A DNA stretch of 22,518 bases from a virus: IMG/VR virus record IMGVR_UViG_3300017763_000220, positions 1 to 22,518 of that record, one strand, 5' to 3'. Under the pieces are notes generated by a model. That model had not been told where the DNA came from. It searched no databases and saw only the letters and a program-made list of their open reading frames with translations. The position numbers were made by a program, and so were the translations under genes. Shown one piece after another: positions 5,024 to 13,200 of this stretch (the stretch's first letter is position 1; each line of letters opens with the position of its first letter).

Positions 5024-5794
5024 GTGCCAGTCCAAACAGGCAAAAGTGTGCTCACTGGAAACAGTGGAAGCATTAGTTTCAAACCAGCCGCAACTGATCT
5101 CGGCCTAGCAGATTTCAGTGATTTTCCTGGCGGCGATCTCATCACTGTGCCTTTGGGGCATGGTTATCGCATTGGCGACAAAGTTCGTTTCGAGGAGAAA
5201 GACAGCGGTCACATTGACTCTGCGCTAACTCTCGCAACTGACTACTACGTCAAAGCAATCTCCTCCGCAACAATCACAGTATCAGCCACATCTGGTGGTT
5301 CTGCTGTCACGCTTGCAGGCGACGGTGGCACGGGGTCAGCAAACACTCAGGGTTACATTCGGATTTTTCTCTCCGAATTCACTGCTGTGGCGAACGTTGC
5401 CTCATTCGAACTCTCATTGGAGAGGGACCAGTTGGAAACTACGTCGCTTTCAACAGGCGCGAGTTCTAATGATGGTTTGGCTCAGTTCAAGACCTATCAA
5501 GCTGGTTTCATCGATGGCACCGGCTCTATGGAGGTGCAATTCACTTCCGACCAAGGGAGCATGGCCTCACGACTGCTCGATTCTTCACTGAAGACTGAGC
5601 AATCTGGTGCTGAGGTAAAGCTCTACATCAACACCATTGCTGCTGCTGGCGGTGGTACTGACGATAATGCTTCTGCATACATTGAAGCTCCAATCACAAT
5701 TCTGGGATTCAATTTCTCTGTATCACCAGAAGACGTGACTGTTGCAACCTTGAATTATGCACTGTCGGGCCAGCCGACAACTTTCAAGCTGTAA
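5024..5794 (+). CDS. Major tail tube protein, 256 aa
   Basis: I take the GTG at 5024 as the start; AAAAGAAA just before it is a weak ribosome site and no ATG offers a better choice. The protein forms the stacked rings of the tail tube. The tube signature is ASFELSLERDQLETTSL at residues 126-142, followed by GTGSMEVQF and a C-terminal FSVSPEDVTVATLNYAL strand. Residues about 38-105 appear to be an inserted beta domain: TVPLGHGYRIGDKVRF, then LATDYYVKAIS and ITVSATSGGSAV. This is a 'GHG...GD.V.F...YYV' module that I recall in other phage tail proteins and that may decorate the tube surface. The signature recurs in two genes further on. A terminator lies directly behind the gene. Confidence 0.85.
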   Translation: MPVQTGKSVLTGNSGSISFKPAATDLGLADFSDFPGGDLITVPLGHGYRIGDKVRFEEKDSGHIDSALTLATDYYVKAISSATITVSATSGGSAVTLAGDGGTGSANTQGYIRIFLSEFTAVANVASFELSLERDQLETTSLSTGASSNDGLAQFKTYQAGFIDGTGSMEVQFTSDQGSMASRLLDSSLKTEQSGAEVKLYINTIAAAGGGTDDNASAYIEAPITILGFNFSVSPEDVTVATLNYALSGQPTTFKL

Positions 5795-5849: not shown

Positions 5850-5870
5850 ATGCAACTAAGTACGTTGCAT
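5850..5870 (+). promoter_or_regulatory. Perfect inverted repeat covering the chaperone start codon
   Basis: ATGCAAC at 5850-5856 pairs exactly with GTTGCAT at 5864-5870 over the loop TAAGTAC. The right arm includes the first two bases of the ATG at 5869. No Shine-Dalgarno site is visible here. If it folds in the mRNA, the hairpin would hide the start codon and could limit chaperone translation. That role is inference. Confidence 0.45.
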
Positions 5871-6228
5871 GTCAACAGGACTTGACCAGCTTAAAAAGGC
5901 TGCAAACCTCAAACCGATCAAGAGAACAATCACTCTTAGCGACGGAAGTGAGTTTGAGTTTTACGCTTCGCCCTTAACAATGGCTCAGCGAGAGCGAGCA
6001 AACCGTGATTCAAAGTCAGATGACATCAACGTGTTTGCTCTCCACCTGCTGGTGAATAAAGCACAAGACGGAAACGGAACACGTCTATTCGGCCCTGGGG
6101 ACATTGCTCAACTCAAGAACGATGTTCGTGATGAGGACTTGCAAACGTTGATGCTTGCGGTTCTACAAAATCCTGACGAAGAGGAGGACCAAGACATCGA
6201 TCTCAAAAGCACTCGAAAAGGATCTTGA
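5869..6228 (+). CDS. Tail assembly chaperone, gpG-like frame, 119 aa
   Basis: This is the zero-frame product of the tail assembly chaperone pair. It lies between the tail tube and tape measure genes, where lambda has G/T. The protein starts MSTGLDQLKKAANLKPIKRT, then ITLSDGSEFEFYASPLTMAQ, a normal 'v.l.dG....v...t..er' chaperone beginning. It ends in a very acidic run (NPDEEEDQDIDL) and a short KSTRKGS tail at TGA 6226-6228. In the family this short form is the main product. A minority of ribosomes change frame near the end to add a C-terminal domain that binds the tape measure protein. The start ATG has no Shine-Dalgarno site and sits in a 7-bp hairpin. Confidence 0.8.
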   Translation: MSTGLDQLKKAANLKPIKRTITLSDGSEFEFYASPLTMAQRERANRDSKSDDINVFALHLLVNKAQDGNGTRLFGPGDIAQLKNDVRDEDLQTLMLAVLQNPDEEEDQDIDLKSTRKGS

Positions 6229-6400
6229 GCGTGACAACTGGATGATGCTGTCTTTTGGGGTGGCAAAAGAGCTGGGTATGACTATCCAGCAGTTGCACGA
6301 GAATGTCACCCAAGAGGAGCTATTAGGCTGGTCTTGCTACTTCAGTATCTTAAATAAACGCCAGGAGGCAGCATTACAAGCAAGCAAGAGGCGTCGATAG
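6155..6400 (+). CDS. Tail assembly chaperone, frameshifted C-terminal extension (gpT-like)
   Basis: This frame is open from 6152 and is +1 relative to the upstream gene. Its coding-like part begins near 6206. It carries NWMMLSFGVAKELGMTIQQL, then ENVTQEELLGWSCYFSIL and a basic end. The LAKELG...L.E..T.EEL..W..Y pattern fits the gpT/DUF4035-type domain. There is no good independent start: only a TTG at 6155, or an ATG at 6240 without a ribosome site. I therefore read it as the extension of the preceding protein, made by +1 (or -2) frameshifting, giving about 176 residues if the shift is at 6205-6208. The coordinates given are the open frame, not a separate protein. Confidence 0.75.
   Translation: MRFYKILTKRRTKTSISKALEKDLERDNWMMLSFGVAKELGMTIQQLHENVTQEELLGWSCYFSILNKRQEAALQASKRRR
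6182..6228 (+). other. Predicted programmed frameshift region
   Basis: Within the overlap, frame one reads CTC AAA AGC ... CGA AAA GGA TCT TGA. Two sites allow a lysine tRNA to move one base forward and still pair: AAA-A at 6205-6208 and AAA-G at 6217-6220. The stop context TCT-TGA is a third candidate, resembling the CUU-UGA logic of the RF2 shift. A perfect internal AGGAGG at 6182-6187 precedes them; such sites stimulate frameshifting in known cases. Which site is used cannot be decided by reading. Confidence 0.55.
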
Positions 6401-6426: not shown

Positions 6427-9400
6427 GTGGCTGCTTATAACGCTGATATTCGCATTGGCGTAGTAGGCAAGGCCGAACTCAACAACCTGCAGAAGCAGCT
6501 TGATAAGGCTTATGGAACAGTAAATAAAATAAACAAGGCGATGGTCTTCAAAGGCCGGACCCAAACAATCAAGCTAAATACGAAGGGCGCAGCAGCACAA
6601 TTAAGGCAACTCGAAAACCAGCTTAATAAGTTGGGGCGTGTCACCGTAAGAGTCCGCACAAGCGAAGAGAAAGGTAAAGGCAAGTCAGGGAACAGCACTG
6701 TTATTACTAATAATTCCAACCAAGGTCCAGGCGTAGCTTTGGCAGCCCTGAATCGTCAGGTAAGCGTTAAGAGAGAAATGACGGCAGTCACTAAAGCAGA
6801 AACTGCCTCATTGCGAGTTAATGCTCAAATCCGAAGCGAAATTGAGAAAATTGATGAAAAAATTCTAAAAAATAGAGAGGAGCAAGCAAGACTAAATAAA
6901 ACACTTCCTGGGACTCGCGGCCAAAGGAAACTCACAAACAAGGAAAAAGTCGAGCAGCTTGCTGCCGGTGGACAACTAAACAAAAAGCAACTTAAGGAGC
7001 TTGAAGGTCTCAGAGGCAAGGCAGCTACCCTCGGCCCTGCAAAAACAAATAAAAAATACAGAAGGTTTTACAAAGATGTAGAAGATATGAACGAAAAAAT
7101 GGTGAACGGTCACAAAAGACTGGCTGGGATGCAAGCAAAAGCAGAAAATGCCACCCGCGAACATGTTGGAGCAAAAATAAGAGAGGAACAAAAACTTTTA
7201 GCTCGCAGGACTCAACTGCAAAATCGGGGCAATGCTGCAGAAATAGCAGGGGCCAACAAAGTAACAGAGGCACACAAGCAAGAACTTAGAGAACGACAAG
7301 CTGCCTTCGACGAATTTCACAGGAAGAAGATGTACCGTAATAACCAAATTTTGAAGCGCGATGCCTTAAGAGCTAAAAAGGCGAGAGGTCAAAATTTTCA
7401 AAAAGGCGCAATTGGAGCAGGCGGTGTCGCAGCCTCTTCCGCACTTAGTGCGATTCCCGGTCTAAGTGGCGCATCCACTGGAGCTACTGTCGGATTTTTT
7501 ACCGGTGGTGTGCCAGGCGCGATCGGTGGCGCATTAGCTGGCGGTGCTGTTGAGGGGGTTGCAGCATTAGCCGCACTAGGCAAGGAGGCTGCGGTCACCC
7601 GCGCCGAGTTTGACAAGCTTCAAATATCACTGGAGTTAGCGGCAGGCGACGACTTTGGAAAGTCGGTAAAGGCAATTCAAAAAGTTGTCGATGACTTCAA
7701 TGCACCTCTTGTCGATACAACAGAACAGTTCACCAAACTGTATGCCTCAGCCCAAGGTTCAGGCATAACATTTAAAGAGTTGGAAACCCTATTCGTAGGT
7801 TTATCTGCAGCAAATAAAGCCTACGCAGGTGACGCAGAAGACCTGAACGGAATACTTAGAGCCTTTACCCAAATCATATCTAAGGGTACCGTTCAGAGTG
7901 AAGAATTGAAGGGGCAAGTCGGTGAACGTCTTCCAGGTGCCTTTAAGAAAGCCGCTGACTCACTGGGATTAACGACCGCTCAGTTACAAAAAGCTCTTGA
8001 AGACGGCGATGTTAATAGTGCTGACTTTGTCAAGAAGTTTGGCAAATACATGCTGCAATACGAGGATGACGCAAAGACTATTGCCAAGTCACCTGCTGAA
8101 GCAGGAGCGCGGCTGAAGACAGCGATAGATAAATTGCTAGTGAGTTTAGGACCAGTGTTTGCTTCCATGGGCTCAGCCTTCCAAGACTTTGCAACGTCTG
8201 CGATTAACTCTCTAATACCGCTAGCAAAGTTCTTAAATACTATGTTTGCTAAGATTAGCGAGGCTCCTATTGCAATAGCAAAAGCGCAGAGAGATAGTGC
8301 TTTAAGAAAATATAGAGAATCAGATAGTACTAGATGGAATCATGAAGGGCGAAAGAAAAACTTAGACAGAGCAGTATCAAACTTAAACACCAAATTAGCT
8401 GAAAGGGATGCACTAGAAGCTGCATTGGAGCGTCGAGCCAAACGAATGACAGAAAATGACGTAACAACAGTTCTTGATGAGGAAGACAAAACCAAAGGAG
8501 GCGCTGGCGGTCCTAAACCCGCCAAACCACAAGACACGGTTGCGGAAACCCGTTTGCAGATTGATCACCAAAGAACACTTTTAGGTATTGAGCGAGAAAA
8601 GTTTGACCTGATTGGACAGGAGTCGAGCCTGCAACAAATTACCTTACAACGCGAAGCAGCGAAGTCTCAGTTAAATGTTGATCTTCTTAAAATCCAACAA
8701 CAAAATCTAACTGCACAAAGCAAAGTCGAACAGACCGTGCTCCGCCAACTGCAACATCAAACGGAAATGCAAGGACTGGCTAATCAAGAGCAGCAATTAA
8801 TTGTGGATCGAACCAAGGCTTTTGAGGAGCAAGTCGAAGGTTTAGAACGTGCCTTTGCTCTAGAAAGCGCAACCACCGAAGAAAAACGCCGACAGGTTGA
8901 GCTGGAACACGCACTGGCGGATGTTAAAAATGATGATGCTTTAAGTGACGATCAGAAAGCCACGCTTAACAGGTTACTTAATGACCGCAAAGAGCTAGCC
9001 GACCGAAACGCAGATCCAATCTTCCAGTACATGAACCAACTGGAACAGAGCATCAACGATACCCGTGGACAGATTGCATCACTAGCTCAGACGATTGAGT
9101 CAGAGCTTGCGACAGCAATGAGTAGCGCCGTCACTGGATTAATCGATGGGACAAGCACGGTGGAAGAAGCAATGAGTTCAATGCTCAAAAATATCGGACA
9201 GGCGTTTATCGATATGGCGACAAGGATATTGGCGCAGAAGGCAATATTTGCAATTTTGAGTGCCTTTGGGGGTGGTGGCGGTGGCGGTGGTTTTAATAAT
9301 CCAAACGATTTTAACAGCATTATTCAGTTGCCTAAGTATGCGTTAGGTGGACCAGTGACGGCTAAGAAGCCTTACATCGTGGGCGAAACCGGACCAGAAC

Positions 9401-9798
9401 TTTTCATTCCTTCAGAAGCAGGTCGAATCGGAACCAACGGAATGTTTGACGCAGCTACTGGAGCACTTGGTTCCGGTAATGCAACCACCAGTTCTGAGGG
9501 AGGCGATGACGGATTTGCAGAAAGTGCCTTTAGCGCGGCTGCTGGTGCATTGATAAGCACCACAAATAATCGTGAGTCTTCGAGGGTGGTCGAGATGCAA
9601 ATGGCACAAGTGGCGGCAATTGAAAATCCAGAACCTATTGATGTGAGGTTCCAAAGCACAGTCATCAACAACACCAGCTACGTCTCAGTTGAGGAGTTCC
9701 AAACCGGACTGGCTCAAACAGCTAACCGTGCAAGGTCAATGACCCTTAAAGACCTCCGACAGAAACCAGCAACCCGCCGTAGTACAGGAGTCGCCTAA
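6427..9798 (+). CDS. Tape measure protein, 1123 aa
   Basis: A GTG start at 6427 has GGGGA six bases and AAGGA two bases upstream. The protein sets tail length and helps DNA ejection. The N-terminal 320 residues are a basic, helical, coiled-coil-rich region. A hydrophobic glycine/alanine stretch occupies about 328-388. The conserved tape-measure domain follows over about 390-575, with LVDTTEQFTKLYASAQGSG, LNGILRAFTQIISKG and EELKGQVGERLPGAF. A second coiled-coil region spans about 705-900, and a run of eight glycines lies near 950. The end has GGPVTAKKPYIVGETGPELF at about 974, the common tape-measure C-terminal motif. If the usual 0.15 nm per residue holds, the tail would be about 170 nm long (inference). 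The TAA overlaps the next ATG by one base. Confidence 0.93.
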   Translation: MAAYNADIRIGVVGKAELNNLQKQLDKAYGTVNKINKAMVFKGRTQTIKLNTKGAAAQLRQLENQLNKLGRVTVRVRTSEEKGKGKSGNSTVITNNSNQGPGVALAALNRQVSVKREMTAVTKAETASLRVNAQIRSEIEKIDEKILKNREEQARLNKTLPGTRGQRKLTNKEKVEQLAAGGQLNKKQLKELEGLRGKAATLGPAKTNKKYRRFYKDVEDMNEKMVNGHKRLAGMQAKAENATREHVGAKIREEQKLLARRTQLQNRGNAAEIAGANKVTEAHKQELRERQAAFDEFHRKKMYRNNQILKRDALRAKKARGQNFQKGAIGAGGVAASSALSAIPGLSGASTGATVGFFTGGVPGAIGGALAGGAVEGVAALAALGKEAAVTRAEFDKLQISLELAAGDDFGKSVKAIQKVVDDFNAPLVDTTEQFTKLYASAQGSGITFKELETLFVGLSAANKAYAGDAEDLNGILRAFTQIISKGTVQSEELKGQVGERLPGAFKKAADSLGLTTAQLQKALEDGDVNSADFVKKFGKYMLQYEDDAKTIAKSPAEAGARLKTAIDKLLVSLGPVFASMGSAFQDFATSAINSLIPLAKFLNTMFAKISEAPIAIAKAQRDSALRKYRESDSTRWNHEGRKKNLDRAVSNLNTKLAERDALEAALERRAKRMTENDVTTVLDEEDKTKGGAGGPKPAKPQDTVAETRLQIDHQRTLLGIEREKFDLIGQESSLQQITLQREAAKSQLNVDLLKIQQQNLTAQSKVEQTVLRQLQHQTEMQGLANQEQQLIVDRTKAFEEQVEGLERAFALESATTEEKRRQVELEHALADVKNDDALSDDQKATLNRLLNDRKELADRNADPIFQYMNQLEQSINDTRGQIASLAQTIESELATAMSSAVTGLIDGTSTVEEAMSSMLKNIGQAFIDMATRILAQKAIFAILSAFGGGGGGGGFNNPNDFNSIIQLPKYALGGPVTAKKPYIVGETGPELFIPSEAGRIGTNGMFDAATGALGSGNATTSSEGGDDGFAESAFSAAAGALISTTNNRESSRVVEMQMAQVAAIENPEPIDVRFQSTVINNTSYVSVEEFQTGLAQTANRARSMTLKDLRQKPATRRSTGVA

Positions 9799-10247: not shown

Positions 10248-13200
10248 TGCTTGATCCGAAAGCCCGTCGAGTATTACTTCCTCAAGACAGAGAGATAATT
10301 GCCCTTACCGGCATGACAGAGGAGCAATACATACAGTTTTTGGACTATTGCGCTGTAAAGAACAGGTTTGAACCTGGCGAGATCGTTGCGTTAGAGCCGT
10401 TTACGATCATCATGATCAACTTGGCTATCGGTCTACTCCTGACCGGTGCATCGATGCTGCTGGCTCCAAAGCCCCAAGAGCCAAAGACTACAAGCCTTGA
10501 CGAAGAAAAAATTGACGGGCAGGACATTGTTCGGAAAGATCGTTTTGCCCCAAAGTCAGGCTTCGACTCTATTCAAAACGTAGTCAACCTAGGGAGCGTC
10601 ATTCCGATTGTTTATGCCAAGCGGGAGACGATCAGTGGTAATCAATACGGTGGGATTCGGATCAACACGAATATGATCTGGTCTCAATTGCAATCAATTG
10701 GGGGCGGTCAGTTTTTCCGAGGCATTTTTATGGTCGGAGAAGCCTCAAACGTACCCACCGTGCCAGAAGGCCCGATAGTTGATTTTGCTCAGACAGCACT
10801 GGGGAATAACACGCTAGCGAGTTACTACTTAACACCAGATCAAACGGCAGGTCGAGCAACTATTTACTACTCACCAGGGAATGGCCGAATTGAAGGTGGA
10901 AGAAACGGAAACTACTACCAGTTAGGCGTTGTGCCTGAATTTGATCCAGGCAACAAGGAAGAAAACACCCCCACAGCCGGTGCAGATGTTTACTGCATAG
11001 AAAGCAATTCAGAAACGCCCACACCTGCTTTTTGTCAGGCAATTATTCCAAGTAACCAATCAACATTCGGAGTTTACGGATTTTGTGCGAACAGGTTTGC
11101 GTTTAAATTAGGTGAACGGTTTGAGGCGTTAACGCAGTGGCAGTCCCGCGCCGATGGTGAGTATGAGCGACAAGACAGTAATCAAAAAGTTTGCCAAAAC
11201 CTCAAAGAGCGCGACCAGTTTGCATGTCGTGCAGGCTTTACAGATTTAGATCGTGAAGACTTTACAGGTCCATCAGACGAACTTGAAACAGTAGAGCCAG
11301 GTGATACATTAACTTATTCAATATTTGCTTCAAGCGATCTCGATCATGTTTTTACTGCGAGTGGAAGCAGTAGCGGAGGTGAAGATCCTAGTGAAATAAA
11401 CTGTAAAGATGTAGCAACAACGATTGCCAGCCTGCAGCGAGGTTATGACGAAAGAATAAACGTAGGAGACCTATACCGAGCGGGGAGTGCATTAGTCATC
11501 TGCACGTCAAGGTCTGCAGTACCTTTTAAAAGCGATGCTGACGTACAAAGCGCAGGCAGTGGGACATCAGTAACTCATCAATTTAAAGTATTAGAAGGTG
11601 GTCAAATCCACGTATGGCAATCAAGCACCTTACAAAATGGGCCTAATGAGGTCAATGGTAGGACAGCCACAGAATCAAGCCATCTATTACAAACGGCAAT
11701 TGCTTCTTTTTCCTTAGAAAGACCAGCCAGGACTATCGAAATTGGCTTTAAGTCTGTGTTAGGGCTTAAAAGTTCTGGCATTGCAAACTTTAATTCTTTG
11801 ACAATCCCAAGCAATTATTCAGGAGAATACGACCAGTATCAGGAGTATGTCGATTCGGAGTTTTGTGGTGGCCAAGAGGATGGGGATGACCCAGAAGATG
11901 ACTCGTACCGTAAAGAAATTTTAGCGGGCAAATATTCAAGTACAGATGATCGATATAGCTTTTTTCTCATTCAATATTTAGATTCAGATGAGGATAGTTA
12001 TGTAACTGTAGACAGGGTTTTTGGGATCCGAAGCCAAACAAGCCAACCTGTCTATAACTATTTACGGATTCGTTTTCCGGATAGTCAAAGACGCGAGATG
12101 AGATTTATCCCAGTGTCCGGTTGGGAGATACGGAATTCTATCGGTGGAGCGGCATCAGACCTGTGCATCCTAGATCCGCATATAGAGGAAAAAATTACAA
12201 TAACAACCAGTGATGGTGCTAGTTTTATATTCAATGGAATCGACGGGCTAGCTAGGACATCTCAGAGCCTAGGTATTAACGCTTTTGGCAACCTAAATTC
12301 CGGTAAAACATCAGAGATTACTAGCACAGTCGTTGAAGACGCAGGTAGTGGATATCCACCAAATTTAGTTAATAGAGGTGATATTTCCTTGGTCGAACAT
12401 GCGACAGGCACGACTACAGGAAGGCAAGCAAAATGTCGCATTTCTACTAATGCCGGTGGTACTATAACGACAAGCCCGATTACAAGATCAGGAGAAGATT
12501 ATAGCGTTGATGATCTCTTAACAGTTAGCACAAGCGACTTGGGATTTAATAATTTACCTGTAAGTGATCCAAAGTCAAACCCCTTTACCGGTACTGCTGT
12601 AAAGATCCGTGTTACCGCTGTTGCGGGTTCATCTCGAAATCCTATCGGTACTGCTGAAGAAGATGATGGAAGTTATTACGTGGATGCCTTTGCGCGTGTT
12701 GCAGAAGCTTTTTGGTATAGCGAAGTCACCAATACTGCAAACCAACCAGAAAACTCAATTAGCTATGTCAACATTATTGATGACAATGAAACGACCCCTG
12801 AGTACGAAGGTGTGGCCATTCTCGGCTTAAATATTCGTAGCACTAAAGAAATTTCCAGTCTGAATCAAGTCAGTGTTTATATCGAACGGGGTGTAATTGA
12901 TTCCCATTTATTTCCTGATGTATTTACAGACCTCCTAACCAATTCTGTCTACGGCGTTGGTGGGTACTTTGATCGAGCACAAATCGATACAGATTCTTTT
13001 TCGTCTGCAGCAACTTACACCAATGATCGTAAATACTTTTTTGATGGCGCGATAAGTGAAAAGATAAATTTAAGAAGCTGGGCTTCTGACATGGCCAGCA
13101 ATTTTTTACTAGATCTCGGAATTAGTGGAGGAAGATTCACCCTTTCACCAGTTGTCAACTTTACTGGACCAGAGACCGTTACTGCACTAATGACTGCAGG

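Follow-up and report, generated by a model that had tools for sequence, protein, structure and literature searches.

Tail assembly chaperone genes of phage lambda (gpG/gpGT) and of HK97-type phages encode a short G protein followed by a T extension in another frame, which in lambda is reached by a -1 shift at a heptamer such as GGGAAAG. A model for the roles of G and T in lambda tail assembly is available (PMC5009743), and one study of two other phage chaperone genes measured 6-7% frameshifting (PMC3711429). For the tail chaperone pair of the Halorubrum virus HSTV-2, an archaeal myovirus, the shift is thought to be +1 (PMC5009743, PMC8211752). In siphophage tail genes, +1 shifts are described for the Listeria phages PSA, A118 and A500 and for SPP1, where CCC is followed by a stop codon or by UCC, and homologous Listeria capsid genes differ in shift direction. 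Outside phages, the bacterial prfB site CUU_UGA_C shifts +1 by P-site re-pairing and needs both a stop codon in the A site and a Shine-Dalgarno sequence adjacent to the E site, while the yeast sites of Ty1 (CUU_AGG_C), EST3 (CUU_AGU_U) and Ty3 (GCG_AGU_U) share an A-site codon beginning with AG, which at Ty1 competes with an abundant +1 codon (PMC5009743).

Here we analyzed a 22,518-base virus record with a head and tail module (hereafter, the window), in which two overlapping frames, G and T, lie immediately ahead of the tape measure gene. Like lambda and the HK97-type phages, the locus combines this gene place with a short G, a T extension in a different frame and a predicted chaperone fold for G (2OB9); unlike lambda, the frames would be joined by a +1 shift at AAA_AGC, and -1 heptamers are found only in some members of the family. 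The direction matches that proposed for HSTV-2, a likeness by description. The Listeria capsid genes resemble the present family in their differing shift directions, but the Listeria and SPP1 cases involve a proline codon in genes for the tail shaft, tail tube or capsid, whereas here a tail chaperone carries AAA_AGN. As at the yeast sites, the A-site codon begins with AG, and as at Ty1 a commoner codon would compete in the +1 frame; those sites, however, are read by eukaryotic ribosomes and have other P-site codons, and the phage does not use AGC rarely (the window has 16.9 AGC per 1000 codons, compared with 38.3 for the +1 codon GCA). Re-pairing in the P site would be shared with prfB, but the A site here holds a sense codon and the nearby AGGAGG lies 17 nt away from AAA.

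Reading frames and protein identities of G and T

The genes at and around the locus are as follows:

5024..5794, plus strand: gene at the expected location of the major tail protein gene, assigned by position only, as for the S-2L gene annotated as major tail protein
5869..6228, plus strand: G, tail assembly chaperone open reading frame (zero frame), 119 aa; phrog_20784, E 4e-34; best PDB match 2OB9
6152..6400, plus strand: T, open stretch in the +1 frame, from open reading frame analysis; phrog_26456 and phrog_337
6427..9798, plus strand: tape measure protein gene; phrog_2335, E 1.3e-39, and Pfam TMP_3

The G/T pair is therefore flanked upstream by the presumed gene for the major tail protein, which had no PHROG or Pfam match and is a tail tube gene by place only, and downstream by the tape measure gene. 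G starts with ATG and the T frame ends with a stop at 6398-6400. The initial annotation had described a gpT-like frame lying +1 to a gpG-like frame and overlapping it over 6152-6228 (77 nt), and both the relation and the overlap were confirmed in the window. Its statement that no -1 heptamer would join the two frames also held: no X_XXY_YYZ heptamer in the window does so, as the frame relation is +1. Translated T is expected to begin at GCA 6209 and to add 63 aa past the shift.

The profile match of G was strong, and its AlphaFold2 model was modest (mean pLDDT 74.8). When this model was searched with Foldseek, the HK97 tail assembly chaperone 2OB9 occupied ranks 1 and 2 (probability 1.00, E 3.9e-3, TM about 0.5) and YqbN was the third PDB match, suggesting, at the level of a modest model, that G has the chaperone fold. 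Pfam Phage_TAC_13 was matched weakly by G in 7 of 54 relatives. The T frame of the window matched phrog_26456 with an E value of 4.5e-8, and in most relatives (35 of 39 members of the family) T had matches to phrog_26456 and to phrog_337, a family labelled "tail protein". Folded separately from G rather than as a G-T fusion, T was modeled as a small helical domain (pLDDT 89.9) that gave no convincing match in the PDB. Judged by their place, the predicted fold of G and the layout of the two frames, G and T are a tail assembly chaperone pair like lambda gpG/gpT.

Conservation of the frame relation and of AAA_AGN

To this pair we added relatives from viral contig searches, the single-cell virus AG-345-A17 and three isolates (KBS-S-2A, S-2L and MED4-184). 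The family is large and consists mostly of marine viruses related to cyanobacterial phages: G was present at 377 loci, and the set contained 274 distinct G/T junctions. T was in the +1 frame relative to G in 147 of these junctions and in the -1 frame in 127, and in no case were the two in frame. The +1 junctions came from many metagenomes plus one single-cell virus record (L084), and scans of bacterial genomes yielded no prophage relatives. Because T is conserved at the protein level and as many as 147 distinct junctions show the +1 relation, the G/T arrangement is, on these sequence comparisons, far beyond chance. In the GenBank records of KBS-S-2A, S-2L and MED4-184 (L082, L083 and L085), no gene is annotated over the T frame that separates the chaperone gene from the tape measure gene, though this frame is conserved.

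Four elements in the window overlap had been put forward by the initial annotation, all at positions that proved correct:

6182..6187, plus strand: AGGAGG, Shine-Dalgarno-like, within Glu codons
6205..6210, plus strand: AAA_AGC, the proposed +1 shift site, listed at first as AAA-A at 6205
6217..6220, plus strand: AAA_G, a second lysine codon that could re-pair
6223..6228, plus strand: TCT TGA, a stop context

An in-frame AAA_AGN stands at the opening of the T frame in all 147 +1 junctions (AGC in 136, AGT in 8, AGG in 2 and AGA in 1). Over the last 12 codons of G, an in-frame AAAAG was present in 147/147 +1 members versus 0/127 -1 members. In 79 of the 147 junctions AAA_AGN holds the sole codon able to re-pair, and many +1 members have a T frame that opens directly behind a stop, which itself overlaps the codon preceding AAA (ATG-A, TTG-A or TTA-A); since G/T overlaps run down to 8 nt, there is no room for a shift upstream of AAA_AGN. 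After +1 re-pairing, the new A-site codon would be GCN in 136/147.

Synonymous codon choice was counted in 15 representatives at 80% identity. The lysine of the site is always AAA, compared with 51 of 125 among other Lys codons, a share that is in part built in, since AAA-A served to locate the site, yet no +1 member is without one. The site serine is AGC or AGT in 14/14, versus 16/56 among other Ser codons. When the main +1 clade was sampled by 36 representatives, 63 conserved degenerate columns could be compared, and of these the AAA column alone was free of synonymous change.

The comparison of the overlap in related phages that the initial annotation had proposed thus singled out AAA_AGC at 6205, and AAA_G at 6217 and the TCT_TGA stop context dropped out, neither being conserved among the +1 relatives. 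With AAA_AGN in every +1 member and AAAAG in no -1 member, the candidates are narrowed to AAA_AGC at 6205-6210, which is supported as the putative shift site of the window. The motif is not avoided in the structural genes of the window, where it occurs in frame eight times versus about seven expected from codon counts, and shifting at AAA_AGN therefore probably depends on context. At window positions 11528 and 14873, structural genes contain two further in-frame AAA_AGC hexamers, where a shift would not be useful; they are natural controls for the context that the site needs.

Proposed route from G to T and its alternatives

We consider it very likely that a +1 frameshift at AAA_AGC joins G and T into a pair of the lambda gpG/gpGT type, as the initial annotation had suggested in outline; the frame relation and the site in 147 relatives support this. 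The majority of ribosomes would terminate at the G stop and release the 119-aa protein, and a minority would shift +1 at AAA_AGC. With AGC in the A site, the peptidyl-tRNA-Lys would leave AAA (6205-6207) and re-pair fully with AAA (6206-6208), after which GCA (6209-6211) would be read. The product would be a G-T fusion of 176 aa, with 113 residues from G and 63 from T. If the pair works as in lambda, the tape measure protein would be coated by G, and the tail tube protein would be recruited by the T part. The perfect re-pairing of the P-site AAA one base on, together with the conservation of the site in 147/147, fits +1 P-site re-pairing. We infer that slippage occurs, and likewise its order of events, how efficient it is and what the products do. 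Such use of +1 at AAA_AGC would differ from the known -1 recoding of gpG/gpGT. We found no report of shifting at AAA_AGC or of +1 shifting in a cyanophage tail chaperone in the literature covered, which included few subscription journals and did not extend to Xu et al. (2004), the principal survey of frameshifting in tail chaperones.

Several other explanations could place T one base out of register with G. A one-base sequencing or assembly error that split a single gene would give a like picture in any one sequence, and the initial annotation had named such an indel as a possible refutation; the recurrence of the +1 relation in 147 distinct junctions, with G and T in one frame in 0/274, excludes it to the point that we assign it virtually no probability. 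A -2 slip, as known in phage Mu (PMC5009743), reaches the same frame with one extra residue, and "+1 or -2" had been left as a pair of possibilities. At AAA, however, -2 movement would put tRNA-Lys onto TCA in the window and onto TGA or TAA in most relatives, and the following codons offer no -2 re-pairing. The +1 half of that pair stands, and the -2 half, having no re-pairing partner, is highly improbable. The 77-nt overlap of the window would also permit a +1 slip elsewhere, for example at AAA_G 6217, which can re-pair as AAG, or at TCT_TGA 6223, but a tRNA on TCT would pair poorly with CTT and both sequences are absent in many relatives where AAA_AGN is universal, which makes a different +1 site very unlikely.

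T could instead be a separate protein made from its own start or by re-initiation. The T frame of the window contains a TTG at 6155, ahead of which we saw by eye no Shine-Dalgarno sequence, and in 59 of the 147 +1 relatives at least one ATG, GTG or TTG lies in the stretch from the T-frame stop to the conserved T domain. The remaining 88 have none of these codons there, so that an independent start is unlikely, and a separate start would leave the exact correspondence of site and frame unexplained; overall, we regard it as scarcely probable. The earlier claim that T has no usable start needs a small amendment for the TTG at 6155 of the window. Slippage during transcription was also considered and rejected. 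Transcript slippage needs longer A runs than four, and the longest A run at the site in the window is four A.

The AAA_AGC site is thus our preferred point of shifting, and we searched its surroundings for stimulators. An internal Shine-Dalgarno sequence stimulates -1 shifting from a distance of 8-11 nt, and +1 shifting if it adjoins the E site (PMC6321510); at 17 nt upstream of AAA, AGGAGG fits neither position, and its spacing varies among relatives, being unfixed outside one clade (L084 and L167-L246; the L084 clade). AGGAGG, which the initial annotation had offered as a +1 element, is therefore probably not a stimulator. GAG enrichment near the site was absent in the main clade, and no conserved 3' structure emerged from RNAalifold on 26 +1 sequences (-0.19 kcal/mol, six poorly kept pairs). 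Between +45 and +105 there was weak evidence of folding, which was discarded as a stimulator, being too far from the site and inside conserved T coding sequence. In the clade of the window, examination of Shine-Dalgarno spacing and 3' folding identified no adjacent stimulator.

The L084 clade presented a different picture. Here, a 12-nt element, GAGGCTAAAGCC (GAG GCT AAA GCC), at -18 to -7 from AAA was invariant in 65/65 distinct sequences, although outside the element those genes favour GAA over GAG, 189 to 20. The stretch can fold as GGC-UAAA-GCC, with -3.5 kcal/mol and 97% of the ensemble in an 18-nt piece, and would sit six bases behind AAA. This hairpin has 3 bp only and in a 33-nt context was no better than many shuffles, and covariation is uninformative because the element is invariant. 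Since +1 shifting in a 70S system is enhanced by stable hairpins immediately upstream of the site (PMC6321510), the 5' mini-hairpin of the L084 clade is, by analogy, a candidate stimulator; an alternative reading of the element is a Shine-Dalgarno-like GAGG at a fixed 14 nt.

Shift direction in the family

Standard -1 heptamers were present in 58 of the 127 -1 members, and the remaining 69, all MED4-184-like, carried an A_AAG-type site. The KBS-S-2A junction carries A_AAA_AAC and is predicted to shift -1. In the MED4-184-like phages (L085, L288-L367), A_AAG GAA TCY TAA RGGGGGA is nearly invariant across the G stop, with no heptamer. We infer that A_AAG is probably the -1 shift site of these phages, acting with a further conserved element. 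As close relatives use ordinary -1 heptamers, the frameshift direction, as read from these sequences, is not fixed in the family.

We placed the direction label on a tree built from G minus its tail (97 columns). With many forks weakly settled, the number of changes is approximate: six with all rows and four without long branches. A single clade of +1 rows was rejected by the AU test (p = 0.011). Direction changes between related genes are known from Listeria phage capsid genes and Trichomonas viruses (PMC5009743), and so repeated change of direction within this family is plausible and not without precedent. More tentatively, and with somewhat less than even confidence, we suggest that AAA_AGN may be a compact +1 motif that has arisen repeatedly from, or reverted to, -1 heptamers like A_AAA_AAC, and that the 5' mini-hairpin of the L084 clade is paired with it. 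If true, the L084 clade would provide an example, from phages in nature, of +1 shifting stimulated by an upstream duplex.

The +1 sites of bacteria and phages have no general consensus, and this family supplies a universally conserved AAA_AGN. As AAA_AGN members occur together with close -1 relatives, sequence rules for shift direction become testable on near-matched natural pairs. The AAA_AGN rule is also a simple way to locate the T half that is unannotated in KBS-S-2A, S-2L and MED4-184.
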